Assembly: GCA_945874505.1 (NCBI GenBank)
Contig: CAMCII010000002.1
Location: forward strand, 1-33,528
Length of the DNA stretch: 33,528 nucleotides
DNA from: Bordetella parapertussis
GTDB lineage: Bacteria; Pseudomonadota; Gammaproteobacteria; Burkholderiales; Burkholderiaceae_B
Reading direction: 5' to 3'
Shown one piece after another: positions 16,642-33,528 of the stretch. Numbering within the stretch: position 1 is the stretch's first letter; each line of letters opens with the position of its first letter. Under the pieces are notes generated by a model. That model worked only from the letters and a program-made list of their open reading frames with translations. It did not search any database and was not told the DNA's origin. The position numbers and the translations under genes were made by a program.

Positions 16642-17139
16642 ATGTCCGAGATCAACGCTTCATCGCAGTCTACCGTCGTGTTAAATGTTGCACTGCAGCG
16701 TAGCGCTGCTGTGAGCTTATTCGGGCTCTTTTTTCTGTGTTTGCTCTGGGAGATCTGGCTAGCACCACTCAGGCCCGGTGGCACCTTATTGTTTTTAAAG
16801 GCGCTGCCGCTGGCCTTTGCGATGCGGGGCGTCTTGCGTGGCAGCCTGTATACGATTCAGTGGGCGTCTATGTTGGTGTTGTTGTACTTGATGGAGGGTG
16901 TGGTGCGGGTGATGTCTGATCCGCCGGGCCCCTCAATTATGTTGGCCTGGATTGAAATCGTCTTGGCGACAATCTTCTTTTTTAGTTCGGTCTTTTATGT
17001 TCGCCCGGCAAAGCGCGTGGCCAAAGCTTTGCAAAAGGCTGAAAAGCTAAATCAAAAGGCTGAAAAGCTCAATAAACAGACTGAAAAGCTAAATCAACAG
17101 ACTGAAAAGCTCAATCAACAGACTGAAAAGCTCAACTAG
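16642..17139 (+). CDS. DUF2069 membrane protein with a repeat-built coiled-coil tail
   Basis: A 165-aa protein. Residues 1-125 fit DUF2069: three or four membrane helices with LLWEIWLAPLRPGG and LLYLMEGVVRVMSDP. The family's function is unknown. The C-terminus is unusual, with about 33 residues made of five heptads of the type (A/T)-E-K-L-N-(Q/K)-(Q/K), predicted to form a charged coiled coil in the cytoplasm. It is encoded by 21-bp DNA repeats and ends directly at the stop. The ATG at 16642 is chosen over an upstream TTG at 16615. The gene is divergent from YihY/BrkB, separated by 95 bp. Confidence 0.85.
   Translation: MSEINASSQSTVVLNVALQRSAAVSLFGLFFLCLLWEIWLAPLRPGGTLLFLKALPLAFAMRGVLRGSLYTIQWASMLVLLYLMEGVVRVMSDPPGPSIMLAWIEIVLATIFFFSSVFYVRPAKRVAKALQKAEKLNQKAEKLNKQTEKLNQQTEKLNQQTEKLN
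17038..17136 (+). repeat. 21-bp tandem repeat, 4.7 copies
   Basis: Units start at 17038, 17059, 17080, 17101 and 17122 (the last partial, followed by TAG). The unit is GCTGAAAAGCTAAATCAAAAG-like, with ACT replacing GCT in the last three copies. Each encodes one coiled-coil heptad, so copy-number changes would alter the tail by whole heptads. Confidence 0.95.
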
Positions 17140-17141
17140 TG

Positions 17142-17167
17142 ATTGACCCTTCGTGCATGGGGTCAAT
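17142..17167 (+). terminator. Hairpin after the DUF2069 gene
   Basis: ATTGACCC (17142-17149) and GGGTCAAT (17160-17167) form a perfect 8-bp stem with a 10-nt loop just after the stop codon. There is no run of T behind it, so a classical intrinsic terminator is uncertain. Confidence 0.35.
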
Positions 17168-17188
17168 GCAAGTTCAGCCGACGTAACA

Positions 17189-17248
17189 AGCCAAAATAGT
17201 GCTAATCCAGCCAAAATAGTGCTAATCCAGCCAAAATAGTGTTAATCG
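17189..17248. repeat. 20-bp tandem repeat, three copies
   Basis: AGCCAAAATAGTGCTAATCC occurs at 17189 and 17209. A third copy at 17229 differs by a few bases. The array lies 23 bp before the selO start, where the 5' untranslated region or promoter of selO would be. Confidence 0.92.
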
Positions 17249-17270
17249 CAGCTCAAACAATATCACTCTC

Positions 17271-18890
17271 ATGACTTCACCTTCTTGTTTTGAACCGCTC
17301 GTTAAAGCGAATACGTTTGCAAGCTTACCCTCAGATTTTTATACACGCTTGCCCACGACACCGCTCACGGCGCCTCGCTTGGCGCATGCCAGTGCTGAGG
17401 TGGCTGCGGTCTTAGGGTTGCCCAGCGAGGCACTAGTCTCTCAAGAGTTTCTTGATGTGGTGAGCGGTACTAAACCGATGCCCGGTGGCGACACCATGGC
17501 GGCTGTGTATAGCGGGCACCAGTTTGGCGTGTGGGCTGGTCAGTTAGGCGACGGGCGCGCCCACCTGTTGGGTGAAATCCAGGGACCAGACGGTAGTTTT
17601 GAAGTGCAACTGAAGGGCGCGGGGATGACACCGTACTCACGTATGGGAGATGGCCGGGCTGTCTTGCGTTCTTCGGTGCGAGAGTATTTAGCGAGCCACG
17701 CGATGCTTGGGCTTGGCATCGCGACAACGCAGGCGCTATCGCTGGTTTCTGCCCGCAATCCTGTCAGACGCGAAACCCTTGAAACAGCTGCGGTCGTGGC
17801 GCGAGTGGCACCAAGTTTTATCCGCTTTGGTTCGTTTGAACACTGGGCTGCGCGCAGGCGACCCGACTTGTTGCGCGTGTTGGCCGATTACGTGATCGAC
17901 CGGTTTTACCCTGAGTGCCGCGATGCGAGTCACTCTAGTACTGCGGGGCATACCAGAATTCTAGGTGATACGAGCACTGTAGGTGAGATCAGCACGACTG
18001 GTGATACCACCACCGTCAAAGACTACGAGCCTTACGTGCAATTGCTGCGTGCAGTCGTGCGGCGCACCGCAACGCTCATGGCAAGTTGGCAAGTGGTGGG
18101 TTTTTGTCATGGGGTGATGAATACCGACAACATGTCGATTTTGGGGCTCACACTTGACTACGGCCCCTATGGTTTCATGGATGGCTTTGATGCCAAGCAC
18201 ATCTGTAATCACACTGATAGCGGCGGTCGCTACGCCTGGCACGCTCAACCCGCGGTGGCGCACTGGAATCTCTATCAGCTCGCGAATAGCCTGCACGAAA
18301 TCGTTCCCGAAGCCGAGCCTCTGAAAGCGGCGCTTGATGAATATGAAGCGTGTTTTCTGGGTGCCATGCAGGCTCGTATGAGCCAAAAGTTAGGCTTAAG
18401 CGCGTGGCAGGCAGGTGATGAAACGCTGATCGACGATCTCTGGAGTCTCATGCAAGCCAGTCACGCAGACTTTACGCTGACCTTTAGGCAACTGGCTTAC
18501 GCGCCGGGTCTGACGCAGGCCTCGCAAGCGCAAATTGAGCATGACTTGGGCGGCACGGTGAACGCGAACCTGCTGCCTTTTGTGGATTTATTTGTGGATC
18601 GTGCGGGCGCGCAAGCTTGGCTTAGCCGCTACAGCGCTCGACTGGGCTCGGACCCTACCCAACATTGGCAAGAGCGGGTTGCCGGCATGCTGGCGGTGAA
18701 CCCGCTGTATGTGCTGCGTAATCACATTGCACAGCAGGCGATTGAGGCAGCCGAAAAGGGCGACTTTAGCGAAGTGCAGCGCCAAATGCAGCTTTTGAGC
18801 GACCCGTTTCACGCTCGGGCGGGCCTAGAAGCGTATGCCGCTGCGCCACCGGCCGGGGCACCTCATTTAGAGGTGAGTTGCTCGTCTTGA
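17271..18890 (+). CDS. selO: Protein adenylyltransferase SelO (YdiU family)
   Basis: A 539-aa pseudokinase-fold enzyme of the SelO/YdiU (UPF0061) family, which transfers AMP to protein hydroxyl side chains. Conserved blocks are YSGHQFGVWAGQLGDGRA, QLKGAGMTPYSRMGDGRA, HGVMNTDNMS and LDYGPYGFMD. The C-terminus ends in Cys-Ser-Ser. This is the conserved redox tail of the family, where vertebrate SelO has selenocysteine. E. coli SelO is about 480 aa; part of the excess is an insertion (about residues 223-250) built from 18-bp repeats between the RFYPEC segment and the NTDN segment. The codons for the C-terminal tail are duplicated twice beyond the stop. The gene stands alone between DUF2069 and aroC. 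Confidence 0.93.
   Translation: MTSPSCFEPLVKANTFASLPSDFYTRLPTTPLTAPRLAHASAEVAAVLGLPSEALVSQEFLDVVSGTKPMPGGDTMAAVYSGHQFGVWAGQLGDGRAHLLGEIQGPDGSFEVQLKGAGMTPYSRMGDGRAVLRSSVREYLASHAMLGLGIATTQALSLVSARNPVRRETLETAAVVARVAPSFIRFGSFEHWAARRRPDLLRVLADYVIDRFYPECRDASHSSTAGHTRILGDTSTVGEISTTGDTTTVKDYEPYVQLLRAVVRRTATLMASWQVVGFCHGVMNTDNMSILGLTLDYGPYGFMDGFDAKHICNHTDSGGRYAWHAQPAVAHWNLYQLANSLHEIVPEAEPLKAALDEYEACFLGAMQARMSQKLGLSAWQAGDETLIDDLWSLMQASHADFTLTFRQLAYAPGLTQASQAQIEHDLGGTVNANLLPFVDLFVDRAGAQAWLSRYSARLGSDPTQHWQERVAGMLAVNPLYVLRNHIAQQAIEAAEKGDFSEVQRQMQLLSDPFHARAGLEAYAAAPPAGAPHLEVSCSS
17964..18017 (+). repeat. 18-bp tandem repeat inside selO, three copies
   Basis: Units at 17964-17981, 17982-17999 and 18000-18017 start with GGTGA and encode GDTSTV, GEISTT and GDTTTV. 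They lie in a loop that is shorter in E. coli SelO and keep the reading frame. The conserved domain resumes at the YEPYVQ segment shortly after. Confidence 0.85.
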
Positions 18891-19055
18891 GGCACTGACG
18901 TGGGCAAAGGGGCTAAAGCCGTTGCGCCTACCTCAGACACTCTGCATTTAGAGGTGAGTTGCTCTTCGTGAGGCACTGACGTGGGCAAAGGGGCCTAAGC
19001 CGCTGCGCCTCTCGCAAAGACATCGCATTTAGAGGTTAATTGCTCTGAGTGATGC
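18837..19055 (+). repeat. 81-bp tandem duplication of the selO 3' end
   Basis: The last selO codons and the stop recur downstream at exact 81-bp spacing. The CAT codon of HLEVSCSS-stop is at 18864, again at 18945 and again at 19026, always in the selO frame. Copy 2 again reads HLEVSCSS then TGA. Copy 3 reads HLEVNCSE then TGA. Copies 1 and 2 differ at five of the first 66 bases. The upstream part GCCGCTGCGCC also recurs in register (18837, 18918, 18999). Copy 2 carries an in-frame TAA in its middle, so only the first TGA could be read through to a complete second tail. Confidence 0.92.
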
Positions 19056-23722: not shown

Positions 23723-24850
23723 ATGAGACAGTCTGTTGGTTTAGTGGGTTGGCGTGGGATGGTGGGCTCAGTGCTCATGCAGCGTATGCGCGACGAGGGT
23801 GATTTTGCCTTAATTGACCCAGTATTTTTTTCAACCAGTAACGCAGGTGGACGTGCGCCCGAGTGGGCTGGTTCTACAGCCTTACAGAACGCCTTTGACA
23901 TCGACGCTTTAAAAAAACTGCCAATTATCGTGACTGCACAAGGCGGCGACTACACCAGCGAGGTCTATCCCAAGCTGCGCGCAGCGGGCTGGACAGGTAT
24001 CTGGATTGATGCTGCAAGTACGCTGCGCATGAAAGATGATGCCATCATCGTGCTAGACCCTGTCAATCGCCCTGTGATTGATGCTGCACTTAAGCGTGGT
24101 ATCCGAAATTTTATTGGTGGTAATTGCACCGTTAGTTGCATGATGATGGGCTTGGCCGGTTTGTTCAAAGAAGGTTTGGTGCAGTGGATGACCAGCATGA
24201 CTTACCAAGCTGCCTCTGGCGGAGGTGCGCAGCACATGCGCGAGCTGCTGACTCAGTTTGGTTTGCTCAATGCCGCAGTCAAGCCTCAGCTTGATGACCC
24301 AGCTTCGGCGATTCTTGACATTGACCGATCTGTACTGGCTTTGCAGCAAAGCGGCCAGTTACCCACTGAGCACTTTGGGATTCCTTTAGCAGGTAACCTG
24401 ATCCCTTGGATTGATAAAGATCTGGGTAACGGGATGTCGCGCGAAGAGTGGAAAGGCGAGGCTGAAACGAACAAGATTTTAGGTCGTGGCGAAGGCTTTG
24501 GTTCAACCCCGATTCCGATTGATGGTTTGTGCGTGCGCATTGGCGCGATGCGCTGCCATAGCCAGGCGCTCACGATTAAGCTCACTCAAGATGTGCCGAT
24601 TGACGAGATTACCGATATTGTCAAAAACGGTACGGCCTGGGCTAAGGTCGTGGCCAACACGAAAGACGCTACCCTAGAAGCATTGTCACCCGTGGCTGTC
24701 ACGGGTACGCTTGATATTCCCGTTGGACGTATGCGCAAGCTATCAATGGGCCCTGAGTATTTGGGTGCCTTTACAGTTGGTGATCAACTGTTGTGGGGTG
24801 CAGCCGAACCGTTGCGCAGAATGTTGCGTATTTCGTTGGGCGAACTTTAA
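23723..24850 (+). CDS. asd: Aspartate-semialdehyde dehydrogenase
   Basis: A 375-aa NADPH-dependent enzyme reducing beta-aspartyl phosphate to aspartate semialdehyde, the branch point for lysine, methionine, threonine and diaminopimelate. It belongs to the E. coli-like type, with [18 protein letters not shown] at the N-terminus, catalytic Cys135 in GGNCTVS and [16 protein letters not shown] near residue 272. It lies downstream of leuB on the same strand, as is common in Burkholderiales. The 184-bp gap before it may hold its own promoter, but I could not identify a convincing one. Confidence 0.97.
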
Positions 24851-24867
24851 GTCAATGGAGTGTTGTG

Positions 24868-26760
24868 ATGCGCGATGAACTGAACGTTGCCTGCCGAAAG
24901 TCGCTGCAGTTTGGCGTAACGCTTGGCTTGACACTTGCCGTGTGTACACAAGCCTTTGCGTTAAAAGCCGGGCACGGTAGCGTGGATTCAATGCCTGGTG
25001 CACCTTTGAAGGTGTCGATTCCGTTACTCGAGGTTCTTGCCGCTGACGCTTCTTCCTTGCGGGTCAAGGTGGCGTCGGCCGATGCTTGGGCCAAATCTGG
25101 GTTGACTCCGCCCGTCAGTCTTGAGTCGATGACAGTATCAATTGAGGCGGGATTCGTAAAAGATTCACGCATGCTGGTGCTTCGTTCAAATCAACTCGCA
25201 GACAAACCGATTATTGATGTATTGCTTGAAGTGTCTTCTTCAAGCGGTTCGACACAAATTCAATCTAGCTTTCTTGTCCTGACGCGTGCCAACGCAGGCG
25301 CGTCGGCTGGGACAGTGCTCGTGAAAGTCGGTGATACGCTCTCTGGAATTGCGCTCGCGAATCCGGTCGCCGGAGCAGATTTGTATCAGATGCTTTGGGC
25401 GCTGTATCAAGCCAACCCACAAGCTTTTTTCTCGCAGAACATGAACATGCTCAAGGCGGGCGTGACGCTTAAATTGCCCGATGCCCAAACTGTTCGCGCC
25501 ATCGATCCAAAACTGGCGCGCGATAGGTATCAAACGCACTTGGATGCGTTTAAAGCTCTTCGTGGTACCGCAACTGCCGCGACTGTAACGTCTCGTGCCA
25601 CGACGCCGGTTGTGCCGCAGCCCAGTGTGGCGCAATCTAGCGGCGTGTCTGCTGCCAGAGCAGCTCCGACCCCAACGGCAAGTGACCGCGTGTTGTTGAC
25701 GTCCTCGAGCACGCCAGACCAACGAGAGGATGCTCGCGTGTCTGCCGCCAAAGAGATCGCTGAGATTCAATCTCGTGTCGATAGTCTGCAAGACAACGTC
25801 AAGAAACTGAAAGACGCGTTGAGTCAAGCATCAAGTGGGTCCGCTGCTAGCTCGGCGAATACAACTGGGTCGGCTCGCGCAGTGGGTACACCTGGCGTTT
25901 CCGGTACGACTGGTGCGACGGGCACCGCAGGCGTTGCAGGCAGCTCGGGTGCAGCAGGTACTACAGGTACGGCAGCTAGGGCAGGTACTACAGGCAATGC
26001 AGGCACGACAGGTGCAGCAGGTACAGCAGGTACAACAGGTACAACAGGTACAACAGGTACAACGGGTACAGCAGGTAGGGCAGGTGCTACCGGCAATGCA
26101 GGCACGACAGGTGCAGCAGGTACAGCAGTTACTACAGGCGCAGCGGCGACAGCAGGCACTACAGGTACAGCAGGCACTACAGGTACAGTTGGTACAACAG
26201 GTACAGCTGGTACAACAGGTACTGCAGGTACAACAGGTACTGCAGGTCCGTCAGGTACAGCAGGTAGGGCAGGTGCTACAGGCAATGCAGACACGACAGG
26301 TGCAGCAGGCACCACAGGCGCGGCGGCGACACCAGGCACTACAGGTACAGCCGGAAATGCAGGTACGACAGGTACTGCGGCAGGTACGACAGGTACTGCG
26401 GCTGCATCTGGTGCAAGTACGACTGCAGCGGGCACGACGTCCGCGAACGGAGCGCCGGCGAACGCTGTGACCGGAGCCCTTAGCCAATTTTGGTCAAGCT
26501 TTACCTCAAGCACTCTTGGGATGCTGACGGCCGTCTTGGCGCTTGGTGGTTTACTTGCGGCGTGGCTGTTGCGCCGGTCGGGAGCGCGACGTGAAGTCGA
26601 CGAGGTTGAGGGCGACGAGGTGTCTGAGCCGCTCAATCCGTTAATGCGAACTGCACTTGATCAAAAACTCCAAGGGATTGATCTCAATCTTGATCAAACA
26701 AAGGCGACTGATAAAAAAGAGCCGTCTATCACGCAGCCTAACGTAAGCCCAAAGGCTTGA
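24868..26760 (+). CDS. FimV/HubP-type polar protein with a collagen-like region
   Basis: A 630-aa protein. Order: signal peptide (residues 1-30, ending near AFA); FimV-type N-terminal domain; LysM-like peptidoglycan-binding segment (about 149-205, [17 protein letters not shown]); coiled coil (about 295-321); Gly-X-Y repeats rich in Thr and Ala (about 340-528); one membrane helix (about 548-570); and a short acidic cytoplasmic tail. FimV/HubP proteins organise the cell pole and support type IV pili. The usual large cytoplasmic TPR part is absent; only a short segment with [13 protein letters not shown] remains. The ATG has GGAG seven bases upstream. It lies 17 bp after asd and 25 bp before truA, the normal position for this gene. 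Confidence 0.85.
25885..26450 (+). repeat. 9-bp repeat array encoding collagen-like Gly-X-Y
   Basis: The array is built of GGTACAACA/GGTACAGCA-type nonamers, giving Gly-Thr-Thr and Gly-Thr-Ala triplets with few interruptions over about 190 residues. A longer block starting with Arg-Ala-Gly and containing Gly-Asn-Ala recurs at about 25978, 26077 and 26266, at spacings of 99 and 189 bp (both multiples of 9), showing that blocks have been duplicated. The other strand is also open across the array, but that is a by-product of the repeat. Confidence 0.93.
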
Positions 26761-29895: not shown

Positions 29896-30912
29896 TTACT
29901 GTACAGTTTCGGCTATTTTGACAACCCGTAGCGGAGGATATTTCTGCAGTTCTTTGGCGATGCCCATATTGACAATCAAGGTAAAGCCGGGTGGTGCAAC
30001 CACAGGAATGTTTTGAGGATCGATTTTTTTGACCAAAATCATTTCAGCTTTTGAAGCCGTTAGTTGCCCGACTGTTGAGTAGCGATTGACCACACCAAAT
30101 AAAGCATCCGCTTCTCTTACGATCGCTTCTGAAACAGCCAAAACAGGTATCTTTTTTTTCACGGCTTCTTTGGTTATGACGTCTCGGTTAAGAAGTAAAA
30201 AAGTGTCTGGCGCAAAGTAAAGTAAATCGATTTTATTTTTTGCAAGTTCCTCGATTAAGCTGGGTAGGCTCGACGGATCTGCTCTGCCGGCAGCATTAAG
30301 AGGGACATTCACGGTTATCAGATCAAAATTAAAATCAAATTGTGCAAGTTCTAGTTCTTTTTGCACGATCATTGAATTATCTTCGGTTGAGTTAGAAATG
30401 TAACCCACTCGCTTGAAGGGCATATATAGTCGCGCGGTACTCAACTGGGTCGCAACGGGCACGATGTAGAGTGTTCCTGTGACGTTTCGACCCGGAGCGT
30501 TTAGGCTTTTGATAATCTTGGACCCAACCGGAGTCGACACAATCATAAATAGGGCGGGTATGTCAGTGACGTGCTTGGCTGGGTCAACGTTGTCGACAGT
30601 GCCAAGCATTTGTAAACTTACGCTGGTACCCCACGTCACTAAAAGATCGGGCTTGTTAGCTTTCACGTGTTTGACAAACTCAGGTATCCGTTTGATATCA
30701 GTCTTGGCATCTAGCACTTCGATTACGACTGGTATTTTGCGGGTTGCCCAATAGCTTTTGAATCCTTCACAGGCTTCTTCGCAACCCCGAAATACCACCA
30801 TCGTGATGCGAAAAGGTTTTACTTCAGCGGCGAGCGTGCGTGCACCCCAACAGGAAAGCAGGATGCTAAGACAGGCTAGCAGTGCAGCACGACTAAGTCT
30901 TGAGAAAGTCAT
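29896..30912 (-). CDS. ABC-type substrate-binding protein (ABC_sub_bind family), orphan
   Basis: A 338-aa periplasmic binding protein. A signal sequence covers about residues 1-28; LLSC at 18-21 is a possible lipobox, while TLAA just after could be an ordinary cleavage site. The mature part has the two-lobed pattern of the ABC_sub_bind (PF04392, TrpX-like) family: PDLLVTWGTSVSLQML, IPALFMIVSTPVGSKI, PGRNVTGTLY, KKIPVLAVSEAIV, and a near-C-terminal IVNMGIAKELQ. The ligand is unknown. No ABC permease or ATPase gene is adjacent; the gene upstream, 16 bp away, encodes a sensor-MFS protein. ATG 30912 is chosen over a TTG at 30954 that would overlap that gene and precede the signal sequence. Confidence 0.85.
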   Translation of the reverse strand: MTFSRLSRAALLACLSILLSCWGARTLAAEVKPFRITMVVFRGCEEACEGFKSYWATRKIPVVIEVLDAKTDIKRIPEFVKHVKANKPDLLVTWGTSVSLQMLGTVDNVDPAKHVTDIPALFMIVSTPVGSKIIKSLNAPGRNVTGTLYIVPVATQLSTARLYMPFKRVGYISNSTEDNSMIVQKELELAQFDFNFDLITVNVPLNAAGRADPSSLPSLIEELAKNKIDLLYFAPDTFLLLNRDVITKEAVKKKIPVLAVSEAIVREADALFGVVNRYSTVGQLTASKAEMILVKKIDPQNIPVVAPPGFTLIVNMGIAKELQKYPPLRVVKIAETVQ

Positions 30913-30928
30913 TTTGTACAAGAACCTA

Positions 30929-32851
30929 TTAAATACGATTGGAACGTAGAGCAAGTCCCAGATTACCCATCACGAGAATCAACACAACGAGTCCTACGCA
31001 AATCGTTGCATCTCGATAATCGATAAGAAGTGAAAAAGTCGCTGCGAGCGCTGCACCAAGAATTCCGCCGATGCGGTCGAAGGTACGGACTAAAGATAGC
31101 GTGTGCGAAATATTGACCTGTGGCAACTCTGCGCGGGTGATCCTCAGTAGTATTGCAGGGGCCAAGGTCAAGACGGCGCTTTGGCCCAAACCTAAACAGA
31201 TGATTCCAAAGGCTAGCGAGAGCGGTTTGTTAATCCAAAGAAGCATTAAAATCCCGACTCCCGATAGGAGCGCCCCCAGCATCATCAGTGGAATGGTTGT
31301 CTGAGGCGAGGGGACGAAGCGAGCCAACAGTACGTTACCTAGGGTGAGAGGTACGTAATAAAACATAAAAAACTGGCCAATGCTCACCTGTGTGAAGCCA
31401 AACTGGAACAACAGCAGCGGCGTCAGATAGAACAGTAACCCGGCCAGCATCAATTTGCCGGATAAAACGTTACTGATTAAGATGATGGATATTTTTCGAT
31501 TCTTCAGCATAGTCGAAAAACTTTTGCTCAGCGAAGTGTTGGCTGCTGACGACTTGGCGGCACCGTCGAACGAGGGGACTGTGATACCCGTGAAGAAGAA
31601 CCAAGACAATACCGCTAATATTGCCGCAAAAAGCATCGCGGCGTCAGTGCCGAGCAACTGAGCAATAACTGCGCCAATGGGCGCTGCGGATAGAGAGGCT
31701 GCCGTTACCGACGCGACAAAAGTACTGAGCCCACGCGTTCTTTCGGCCTCGGTTGTTGCTGTTTTTGTCATAAACACCTGAGCGGCCACGGTCGCGACCG
31801 CATAACCAAAGGCGCAAAGGGAACGTAAGATCACCACCTCAATGACCGAGGTGGCAAACGCCAAGCCACCTAAACCGATGGTAGAGATCACGACACTCCA
31901 TTTAAAAGAGTTTCGGATGCCAAGTCGTTCGACTACGCCGCCACCAAACACGGTTCCGAGTCCGGCAAAGAGCATATAAGACATGATTGGTAATGCGATA
32001 TCAATATCTACCGCAATCAATGGGTGCATCACCGCAATATCTTTGACATAAATCGGTAAAAAAGATCTGAGTAGTTCTTCTGAAAAAACAAATAAAAACA
32101 ACACTAGTCGTAAGTCGTAAGCTTTGGGCTCGTACCAGTCGTTGCCTTTAGTCGGAGTTGTCGCTTTTCGAACTGAACTTGCGAGCGACTGGAAGTACTG
32201 AGAAGTCAGCGTGACCAGATCTGAAAAAGGCCCGGCAATCGCGGTAGACAGGCTTCTGTGGGTCCTGCCGGTCTTGAGTCCTTCGATCATTGAAACCCAA
32301 GTGCCGATCGGTCTAAAAATCCAAAGCACCACAAAAAAGAGAGTAATTTCAAGCCCAACGGTAAAGGCGACTAACGAAACAACGACCGCGTCTCCGACCA
32401 TCACTCTTAGCTGTTCGTTGACATATGACTTGCGCAAACCAACAGTGATAGTCGGTAAACTTTCGTGTTGAATAATCTCTTCAATGACATTTTGACTAGA
32501 TTGCGACGACTGACTGGCATCACGATGCTTGACGTACTCACGGCCCTCGCGGCTTTTGATCTTGATAAAATTGATCTCGGGGTTGTCGGCTAAGACATCT
32601 GACAAGTAATCTTCAACGCCGACCAGAGAGTCAAAGGGAATCCCAAGTTTGAGCGCATCAGAGATAGTCGCTTGAACCGATTTTGCAACGACATTACTCT
32701 TGAGTAAAACCTGAGGCGTCAGCGTGTCTTTAAAACTACTGAGCATCAAAAATGTTAAGAGCAATGCAGCACCAAGGCCGACGATCGAAAGTGCTAAATA
32801 GGTGCGTGTCGCTAGTTTTCGCTCAACGCTTTTTGGAACCGATTGACTCAT
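30929..32851 (-). CDS. Sensor-domain / MFS transporter fusion
   Basis: A 640-aa membrane protein with an unusual domain order. TM1 (about 18-38) and TM2 (about 153-179) enclose an extracytoplasmic domain of about 115 residues, as in Cache-type or other chemoreceptor-like sensors. A HAMP-like linker (about 180-235) follows. A full 12-helix major facilitator domain (about 245-638) comes next, with the loop 2-3 motif region GGGVVERLGIRNSFKW. The domain segment LGIPF...DVLADNPEI at about 69-93 has a related copy in the upstream protein. Start and stop overlap the upstream gene by 4 nt (ATGA), and the binding-protein gene follows after 16 bp. The cargo is unknown; coupling of sensing to transport is inferred from architecture. 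Confidence 0.82.
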   Translation of the reverse strand: MSQSVPKSVERKLATRTYLALSIVGLGAALLLTFLMLSSFKDTLTPQVLLKSNVVAKSVQATISDALKLGIPFDSLVGVEDYLSDVLADNPEINFIKIKSREGREYVKHRDASQSSQSSQNVIEEIIQHESLPTITVGLRKSYVNEQLRVMVGDAVVVSLVAFTVGLEITLFFVVLWIFRPIGTWVSMIEGLKTGRTHRSLSTAIAGPFSDLVTLTSQYFQSLASSVRKATTPTKGNDWYEPKAYDLRLVLFLFVFSEELLRSFLPIYVKDIAVMHPLIAVDIDIALPIMSYMLFAGLGTVFGGGVVERLGIRNSFKWSVVISTIGLGGLAFATSVIEVVILRSLCAFGYAVATVAAQVFMTKTATTEAERTRGLSTFVASVTAASLSAAPIGAVIAQLLGTDAAMLFAAILAVLSWFFFTGITVPSFDGAAKSSAANTSLSKSFSTMLKNRKISIILISNVLSGKLMLAGLLFYLTPLLLFQFGFTQVSIGQFFMFYYVPLTLGNVLLARFVPSPQTTIPLMMLGALLSGVGILMLLWINKPLSLAFGIICLGLGQSAVLTLAPAILLRITRAELPQVNISHTLSLVRTFDRIGGILGAALAATFSLLIDYRDATICVGLVVLILVMGNLGLALRSNRI

Positions 32852-33528
32852 GTTGGCGACGCCTCGCGTGCCAGTGTGGTTGCCAAGTTTTTAGCCTCTT
32901 GAGCATTTTGCGCGAGTCGACAGACCTCACTATTCATCAAAGAACTCTTGTCAGGCGTCGAGCCTAGAACGACTGATCTGGCCGTCAGTACAATCTTATC
33001 CAATTTCAGAAGTAAGAAAAAAAGAATCGGAGCCAATAGCGCAAGCGCCGCGATACATAAGGTCAGCGCTAGGGTCAGGATTTCAGCACGCGCATTGGCT
33101 GCGATGGTCAGCGCCTCAGATTTATCCGAAACGAATACTAACTGGGCAACGTTTATCCCAAGCGGATCGACAATCGGCCAGTGTTGTAAGAATACTGGAG
33201 TGTCTCCAGGCTTTGGTGATGGCGCAGTTCTACTAGAGGGGTTAGCTTGGTCGGCGCGCAGAGACGATGGTGGGCGAGCGCCTGCGGACCAAAGGACTTC
33301 GCGCTCACTTGCGTCTGCATTGGTCAGTTCGATCGACAACACAATCGGATTATTTTGTATGACGTCGTTCAGCATGAGGGGAATTTGCGCGTTGGTTTGT
33401 AGCGCAATCCCAGTCGCTATGCTACGTTCGATGTCACGTTTGAGTGCATCTGCCGGAACTTCGATTCTGTCTTTAGTGATGTCAAATAGCAGATGTTGAA
33501 AACGAAAATACTGTAGCGCTGACAGCAG
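32848..33528 (-). CDS. Membrane sensor protein without visible output domain (5' part outside window)
   Basis: The frame is open to the right edge, giving 226 visible C-terminal residues; the N-terminus lies beyond. An internal ATG at 33375 is unlikely to be the start because the domain clearly continues upstream (PADALKRDIERSIATG). Visible parts are an extracytoplasmic domain with DVIQNNPIVLSIEL, a Pro/Ser-rich loop, one membrane helix (about residues 147-172 of the visible part) and a HAMP-like segment. The protein then ends, with no kinase, GGDEF, methyl-accepting or HTH domain. It overlaps the sensor-MFS gene by 4 nt. It may be a partner subunit for that protein; no function is assigned. 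Confidence 0.7.
   Translation of the reverse strand: MLSALQYFRFQHLLFDITKDRIEVPADALKRDIERSIATGIALQTNAQIPLMLNDVIQNNPIVLSIELTNADASEREVLWSAGARPPSSLRADQANPSSRTAPSPKPGDTPVFLQHWPIVDPLGINVAQLVFVSDKSEALTIAANARAEILTLALTLCIAALALLAPILFFLLLKLDKIVLTARSVVLGSTPDKSSLMNSEVCRLAQNAQEAKNLATTLAREASPT

Follow-up and report, generated by a model that had tools for sequence, protein, structure and literature searches.

A conserved bacterial gene module placing Cache-like sensors and a dedicated binding protein beside an exporter-like MFS carrier

Periplasmic binding proteins feed importers, sensor kinases or chemoreceptors. At one end of a 33,528-nucleotide stretch of Bordetella parapertussis DNA (the window), such a protein is encoded next to a membrane sensor and a carrier of the major facilitator superfamily (MFS), raising the question of what a binding protein does in this company. 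Here, we confirmed the coordinates of the three minus-strand genes, which a preliminary description of the window had reported as tightly packed: a sensor stub (32848..33528, 5′ end cut), a sensor-MFS fusion protein of 640 aa (30929..32851) and an ABC_sub_bind (PF04392) periplasmic substrate-binding protein (SBP; 29896..30912) with an N-terminal signal-like segment, as judged by eye. The stub and fusion genes share a 4-nt overlap (ATGA), the fusion gene stops at TAA (30929-30931), and the gap to the SBP gene is 16 bp if the latter starts at the ATG at 30912. The SBP open reading frame (ORF) spans 29896-30954, with a TTG at 30954, and the ATG is the likely start because the relative in locus L033 starts there. 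Pfam recognised MFS_1 at residues 249-600 of the fusion protein (E 5e-28) and ABC_sub_bind in the SBP (E 3.3e-25), and returned no match for the stub.

Linkage of the binding protein to the sensor-MFS gene

We searched with the MFS protein over 61 genomes, its own included (E <= 0.001), and 27 of the 61 matched, many in the MFS part only. The full-length or near-full-length relatives showed 47-82% identity within the genus, with one at 27% in another family of the order, and their flanks carried the stub, sensor-MFS and SBP genes in the same order, 4-nt overlaps being common. A GNAT-like gene stood between the MFS and SBP genes in L043 and L045 (in the latter at Pfam E 0.0008, just under the cut-off). 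Among 399 genomes of the order, a profile search at E <= 1e-20 found matches in 22; among 398 of the phylum, at E <= 1e-30, it found 15, of which G458, G593 and G624 matched in the MFS part only and were used as controls. A further scan, of named genomes, brought in Mesorhizobium, Jiella, Propionivibrio, one gammaproteobacterium and one cyanobacterium. The census comprised 53 mutually related sensor-MFS loci from 49 genomes or contigs, found by MFS-protein searches. Only the best 2-5 candidates per genome were scored in the large genome sets, and copy counts are lower bounds; L040 was left out with its MFS gene cut at a contig end, as were L076-L084, L089 and L092, whose contigs were already counted. 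G222 and G157 lie outside the census loci, their linkage being read from coordinates, and the Pfam scans covered part of the neighbour genes. The same gene order recurs across 20-82% MFS-protein identity, and therefore the arrangement is not a product of chance. The three-gene set is a real, conserved module.

We then asked how strictly the SBP accompanies the fusion gene. A close SBP homologue, detected by profile, lay at most about 1.1 kb away in 46 of the 53 loci, and a divergent SBP was found nearby in five further loci (adjacent PF04392 genes by Pfam in L136 and L138, an adjacent gene clustering with those in L137, and a PF04392 gene one gene away in L046 and L047). L034, which showed no close SBP homologue, is cut by a contig end. 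None of 16 sensor-less MFS-type control loci, taken from weak matches of the 61-genome and phylum searches, had an SBP or stub gene (flanks of up to 1.5 kb, shorter at contig ends). The association of SBP, MFS carrier and second sensor, which the preliminary description had singled out as unusual, is recurrent. The linkage is equally strict from the other side. Searched with a profile of the SBP clade at E <= 2e-111, the 399 genomes of the order gave 25 hits, spread over 21 genomes, the next scores dropping to E 1e-42. By coordinates, each of the 25 genes has an MFS gene of the sensor-MFS family at most about 1.1 kb away; in G237 the contig stops short of the sensor part, and in G157 the MFS match is fragmented and contains a stop. 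Only one genome of the order, G034, has such an MFS gene without an SBP-clade gene, and the form present there is the divergent one. Homologues with the two genes apart had been named in advance as speaking against a functional unit, and these counts go the other way.

The tree of 78 SBPs placed all 44 MFS-linked proteins on one side of a branch with support 99/98, the ABC-type proteins of L140-L157 on a separate branch (100/99), and a set including four HAMP-linked SBPs on a third (97/90); the divergent SBPs of L046, L047, L136 and L138 fell outside the MFS-linked clade. Moreover, MFS and SBP divergence were correlated (r 0.82, n 41; none of 2000 permutations as high), a pattern that shared genome ancestry alone could cause. 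Given the census linkage, the dedicated SBP clade with all its 25 genes beside such MFS genes, and this correlation, we regard chance neighbours or an unrelated operon as very improbable. In L163, L165, L166 and L168, other PF04392 proteins adjoin Cache-HAMP-PAS/GAF or HAMP-histidine-kinase genes (Pfam), and because of these neighbours the family may serve as a co-receptor more widely.

The SBP family is shared with TrpX-type ATP-binding cassette (ABC) importers, which combine a PF04392 protein with a BPD_transp_2 permease, and the nearest NCBIfam model of the module SBP is TrpX, far below its cut-off. We built a permease profile from eight loci with a permease beside an ABC-type PF04392 protein; it matched 18 of 30 PF04392 survey loci, namely all of L140-L157 and none of L158-L169 (8 of the 18 built the profile), and Pfam confirmed the permease type in L143 and L147. 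In contrast, none of the 53 module loci matched in their mapped regions (the window's contig ends beyond the stub), and the module SBP sits in a separate clade. An ABC ATPase domain occurred in five of the 53 loci (L033, L103-L105 and L135), never adjoining the SBP gene. A hidden ABC importer was ruled out by the permease profile, in agreement with the earlier remark that no permease accompanies the binding protein. On the stub side the window seems to reach the end of the contig, because the fetched locus of 5,133 bases is the 3,633-base match extended by 1,500 at one end only.

Two sensors and an exporter-like carrier

All 50 loci that are uncut at the sensor end carry two sensors. A separate stub accompanies the fusion in 37 of the 53, tandem sensors occur in the MFS chain in 13, and three are truncated where their contigs end. 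The evidence for the first in-chain sensor of L109 and L111 is mainly four N-terminal transmembrane (TM) segments, together with the stub profile in L109. The stub and the fusion sensor are homologous, because their profiles matched in hhalign at 98% probability (E 3e-13, 192 columns). In a MAFFT alignment the stubs fell on the second sensor of the natural two-sensor fusion L088, which was set aside for that reason as a stand-in for the heterodimer. In the window, the stub consists of TM1, a Cache-like periplasmic domain, TM2 and a cytoplasmic tail of HAMP length, without an output domain. Judged by the relative in L033, it probably lacks only its first ~20 residues, because the L033 stub has 20 residues ahead of the matching LLSALQF. 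We rejected the idea that the stub is a truncated-gene artefact: it is complete but for these residues, and it is a free-standing gene in other loci.

The stub had been described as having no output domain in view. This held for all 18 stubs scanned, in which Pfam identified no convincing domain of that kind (the best stray match had E 0.0048) and, as in 20 MFS proteins, no kinase domain. The gene is nevertheless not a leftover, its equivalent being fused into the MFS chain in the 13 tandem loci, and it looks like a required second sensor rather than a fragment. A single-chain AlphaFold model of the L077 stub homologue (pLDDT 77, pTM 0.57) matched WalK (4ywz, Z 12.5), KinD (4jgo, Z 10.0) and chemoreceptor Cache domains, and by this model the stub is a Cache-type sensor. 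LuxQ was among the matches, alone (3c30, Z 9.4) or in LuxP-LuxQ crystals (2hj9, 1zhh), at Z 9.1-9.4, below WalK and level with other Cache sensors, so it was not singled out. Cache and HAMP units are generally dimeric and MFS carriers are single units; a sensor partner with no carrier of its own would therefore fit a receptor-driven MFS protein.

The model of the fusion protein (pLDDT 78, pTM 0.74) showed a long helix, a Cache-like alpha/beta domain, TM2, HAMP-like helices and a 12-TM MFS fold. Residues 1-194 (32270..32851) hold TM1, the Cache-like sensor and TM2 and are homologous to the stub; residues ~181-236 (32144..32311) form the HAMP-like linker, helical in the model; and the MFS domain covers residues 240-638 (30938..32134), by Pfam and by structural matches. 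The closest structures to the MFS part included VMAT2 (8jtc, Z 43.0), SPNS2 (Z 40), SotB (6kkk, Z 40.0), NorA (9b3m, Z 39.2) and MdfA (4zow, Z 37.2), so that DHA1 relatives are among the nearest; in the VIA list for the MFS model the sensor part was barely tested. In NCBIfam, the MFS parts of three relatives matched mostly efflux families and some symporters, all far below the cut-offs, and the MFS part from the window gave one weak match, to a multidrug-resistance superfamily model. Among 20 members, an acid in TM1, motif A (lenient pattern) and an arginine in TM4 were each kept in 19. Motif C is defined as gxxGPxiGGxl or GxxxG in TM5 (PMC9650428), and a relaxed pattern was kept in 17 of the 20. 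The module carrier shares its fold and main motifs, motif C less clearly, with the DHA1 drug:H+ antiporters (SotB, NorA, MdfA) and the vesicular monoamine transporters, from which it differs by its N-terminal Cache sensor, HAMP-like linker, stub and SBP and, in the window, by an eroded motif C. On these matches the MFS domain resembles exporters of the DHA1 type, and export would be its predicted activity.

Two acidic residues in the second sensor helix, D154 and E168 (32348..32392; codons 32390-32392 and 32348-32350), were invariant in the 20 members. E168, together with D or E at 154, was kept in 47 of 51 intact sensor-MFS fusions, while the degenerate MFS-like paralogues of L091, L093, L102, L107 and L132 retained both acids in none of five cases and E168 alone in two. 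Because the acid pair is kept in intact fusions and lost in degenerate paralogues, the pattern suggests, short of proof, that this helix communicates with the carrier. Pfam HAMP was matched in 4 of the 20 homologues at E <= 1, the best at 0.00012.

Receptor-coupled transport and its rivals

How could these parts work together? The account that we prefer, at a little short of an even chance, is a receptor-coupled MFS protein, in which a LuxPQ-like receptor, made of a Cache pair fed by the SBP, gates an exporter-type carrier. The SBP would capture a small periplasmic ligand and dock on two paired Cache domains, that of the stub and that at the N-terminal end of the MFS protein, the stub serving as a dimer partner that brings no second carrier. 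The signal could then travel along the second sensor helix, which carries the acidic residues, and on through the HAMP-like linker to the MFS domain, which would be gated to export a small molecule. What the data show is the architecture, its conservation, the strict genetic linkage and the presence of two sensors; the formation of the complex, gating, transport direction and ligand are inferred.

The likeness to LuxP-LuxQ lies in a periplasmic SBP with a Cache/PDC sensor, and in LuxQ being among the structural matches of the stub. In LuxPQ it is the SBP, not the sensor, that binds the signal, and LuxQ has a double PDC, whereas each module sensor has a single Cache-like domain (LuxPQ features from PMC8534201). 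The module combines a Cache/PDC sensor with a dedicated SBP partner gene; its output is an MFS domain and not a histidine kinase, its sensor pair is hetero (stub plus fusion), and its SBP belongs to PF04392. It would represent a new variant built of known parts, with LuxPQ-like sensing and a transporter as the output.

Several observations weigh against this account. Each AlphaFold run modelled one chain by itself, the alignments holding 15 and 18 sequences, and Pfam recognised neither the HAMP nor the Cache part of the window's fusion protein. A symporter (6e9n, Z 38.1) also fits the MFS fold, the strict GPxIGG form of motif C was found in only 9 of 20 members, and motif C of the window is eroded (SAAPIGAV). 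The acid pair is absent from the four divergent members L090 and L136-L138, and no SBP was found beside the sensor-MFS gene of L090, where the next scanned gene encodes an M23 peptidase. Finally, SpoIIE, kinase and cyclase genes near some loci suggest signalling, rather than transport, as the main purpose.

The last point leads to a transceptor, which we consider possible and clearly the less likely of the two. Here, the SBP, both Cache sensors and the MFS domain would signal the presence of an external ligand to a partner in the cytoplasm, such as a SpoIIE phosphatase, a kinase or a cyclase, whose gene may lie nearby or elsewhere, the MFS domain being mainly a part of the receptor, much as UhpC acts for UhpB. 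SpoIIE genes lay in the mapped regions of 12 of the 53 loci, where about 0.35 would be expected given the 65 matches in 37 genomes, taken at 4.2 Mb each (the loci are non-independent), and HATPase and STAS genes stood alongside in several loci. Degenerate MFS-like paralogues with sensors near SpoIIE genes, and a sensor-SpoIIE fusion in L111, also speak for such a role. However, 41 of the 53 mapped regions had no SpoIIE gene, a SpoIIE search of the window's genome gave no match, and the transport motifs were kept in nearly all of the 20 intact members.

The degenerate paralogues lie at L107:2344-4392, L132:12167-14164, L102:778-2562, L091:6634-8469 (minus strand) and L093:6497-8320 (minus strand), each next to a stub, with a SpoIIE gene close by; in the four scanned (L107, L132, L102 and L091), Pfam did not recognise the MFS domain. 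At L111:12930-15761, a homologous Cache sensor is fused in-chain to a SpoIIE phosphatase, with its own stub ahead, which is another output for the same sensor type.

Compared with the receptor-coupled carrier, a binding-protein-dependent MFS importer, in which the SBP would hand its ligand to the MFS domain and the sensors would act as a docking platform, seems unlikely. It would resemble the tripartite ATP-independent periplasmic (TRAP) and tripartite tricarboxylate (TTT) transporters, in which an SBP serves a secondary carrier. The SBP has no other transporter partner beside it, is the sole PF04392 gene found in its genome (89.5% complete), and belongs to a clade strictly tied to the MFS gene, as an importer would have it. 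Yet the carrier is an MFS protein with sensor domains, exporter-like in fold and motifs, Pfam recognised only MFS_1 in the membrane protein and no DctQM or TctAB subunits, and Cache-HAMP signalling proteins, too, have PF04392 partners, for which delivery of cargo is unlikely. Of the two models offered in the preliminary description, transport dependent on the binding protein, read as import, is the weaker beside a receptor complex in which that protein reports ligand to both sensors, because the carrier resembles a DHA1 exporter.

Neighbouring genes and the Bordetella btr locus

A formyltransferase-family gene (PF00551; 28965..29894, plus strand) converges on the module in the window and is a frequent neighbour elsewhere. 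GNAT-like genes occurred in 14 of the 53 regions and formyltransferases in 12, the window included, and most, not all, of them adjoin the SBP gene. The two were never found together (probability 0.015 under independence), which is a hint only, the loci being related. HATPase_c_2, STAS and alanine racemase genes accompany several loci, and protein kinases and class III cyclases stand beside some. One apparent neighbour family proved to consist of out-of-frame SBP translations in a six-frame check, and an apparent neighbour cluster of the L095 type looks like antisense translation and is absent from the cleaned maps. At L136:5262-6458, a D-Ala-D-Ala-ligase-like ATP-grasp gene directly precedes the divergent two-sensor MFS gene, with homologues in L137 and L138. 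In L129, L130, L133, L134 and L100 the module lies beside type VI secretion genes (VgrG, PAAR, ClpB/ClpV-like, TssF and VipB).

A bolder proposal, which we hold to be improbable, is self-contained chemical signalling. The acyltransferases (GNAT or formyltransferase), sometimes with alanine racemase, would make an N-acylated amino-acid-like signal, the MFS protein would export it, and the SBP with the Cache pair would read its outside level and throttle the exporter; the same sensor type would in many genomes drive a SpoIIE-HATPase-STAS switch, including the kind that serves Bordetella type III secretion.

Elsewhere in the window, a 655-aa ORF (24793-26760) contains a long tract of low complexity in which G, T and A residues abound; 9/18-bp tandem repeats at 25948-26274 encode it. 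The ORF stands just upstream of one ORF of TruA-like appearance and one TrpF-like ORF (Pfam PRAI). Short tandem repeats were also found at 247-350 (15/45-bp units), 17032-17257 (20-21 bp) and 18864-19046 (81 bp).

The published btr locus of Bordetella offers a point of comparison. According to PMC7498569, the locus comprises BtrV, BtrW, alr, BtrO, BtrU, BtrN, BtrM, BtrA and BtrS; BtrO is listed as an MFS transporter and BtrN as an ABC transporter, both of unknown function, and BtrU/W/V are described as controlling type III secretion through a "yet unknown mechanism". The names BtrO and BtrN appeared in PMC7498569 only, among the matches listed. Two divergent loci from genomes of the window's family, L046 and L047, encode in order an SBP, SpoIIE, a two-sensor MFS protein, alanine racemase (assigned by Pfam in L047 and by clustering in L046), HATPase and STAS, which matches the published order BtrN, BtrU, BtrO, alr, BtrW and BtrV with small differences in each. 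In L046 a Xan_ur_permease gene is inserted before STAS, and a GCS2 glutamate-cysteine-ligase-like, BtrM-like gene lies beside the SBP gene; in L047 an extracytoplasmic function (ECF) sigma factor and a secretin lie beyond it. The window differs from btr in its separate stub, an SBP of another clade, its formyltransferase gene and the lack of a SpoIIE match in its genome, so that L046 and L047 are loci of btr type and the window is not.

Judged by gene order and domain content alone, L046 and L047 likely encode distant relatives of BtrN and BtrO. The module had been put forward as possibly undescribed, and this calls for a qualification: BtrO and BtrN are listed in PMC7498569 in the order seen in L046 and L047, while the titles and abstract starts of the open-licence PubMed Central articles listed described no sensor-MFS or SBP-MFS system. 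The findings give a concrete hypothesis for btrN and btrO, two genes of the locus governing type III secretion, and tie them to a module found at type VI secretion loci as well. If the receptor-coupled account is true, the kind of receptor otherwise built on other outputs would here be built onto an exporter-like carrier, giving a directly ligand-gated secondary transporter.

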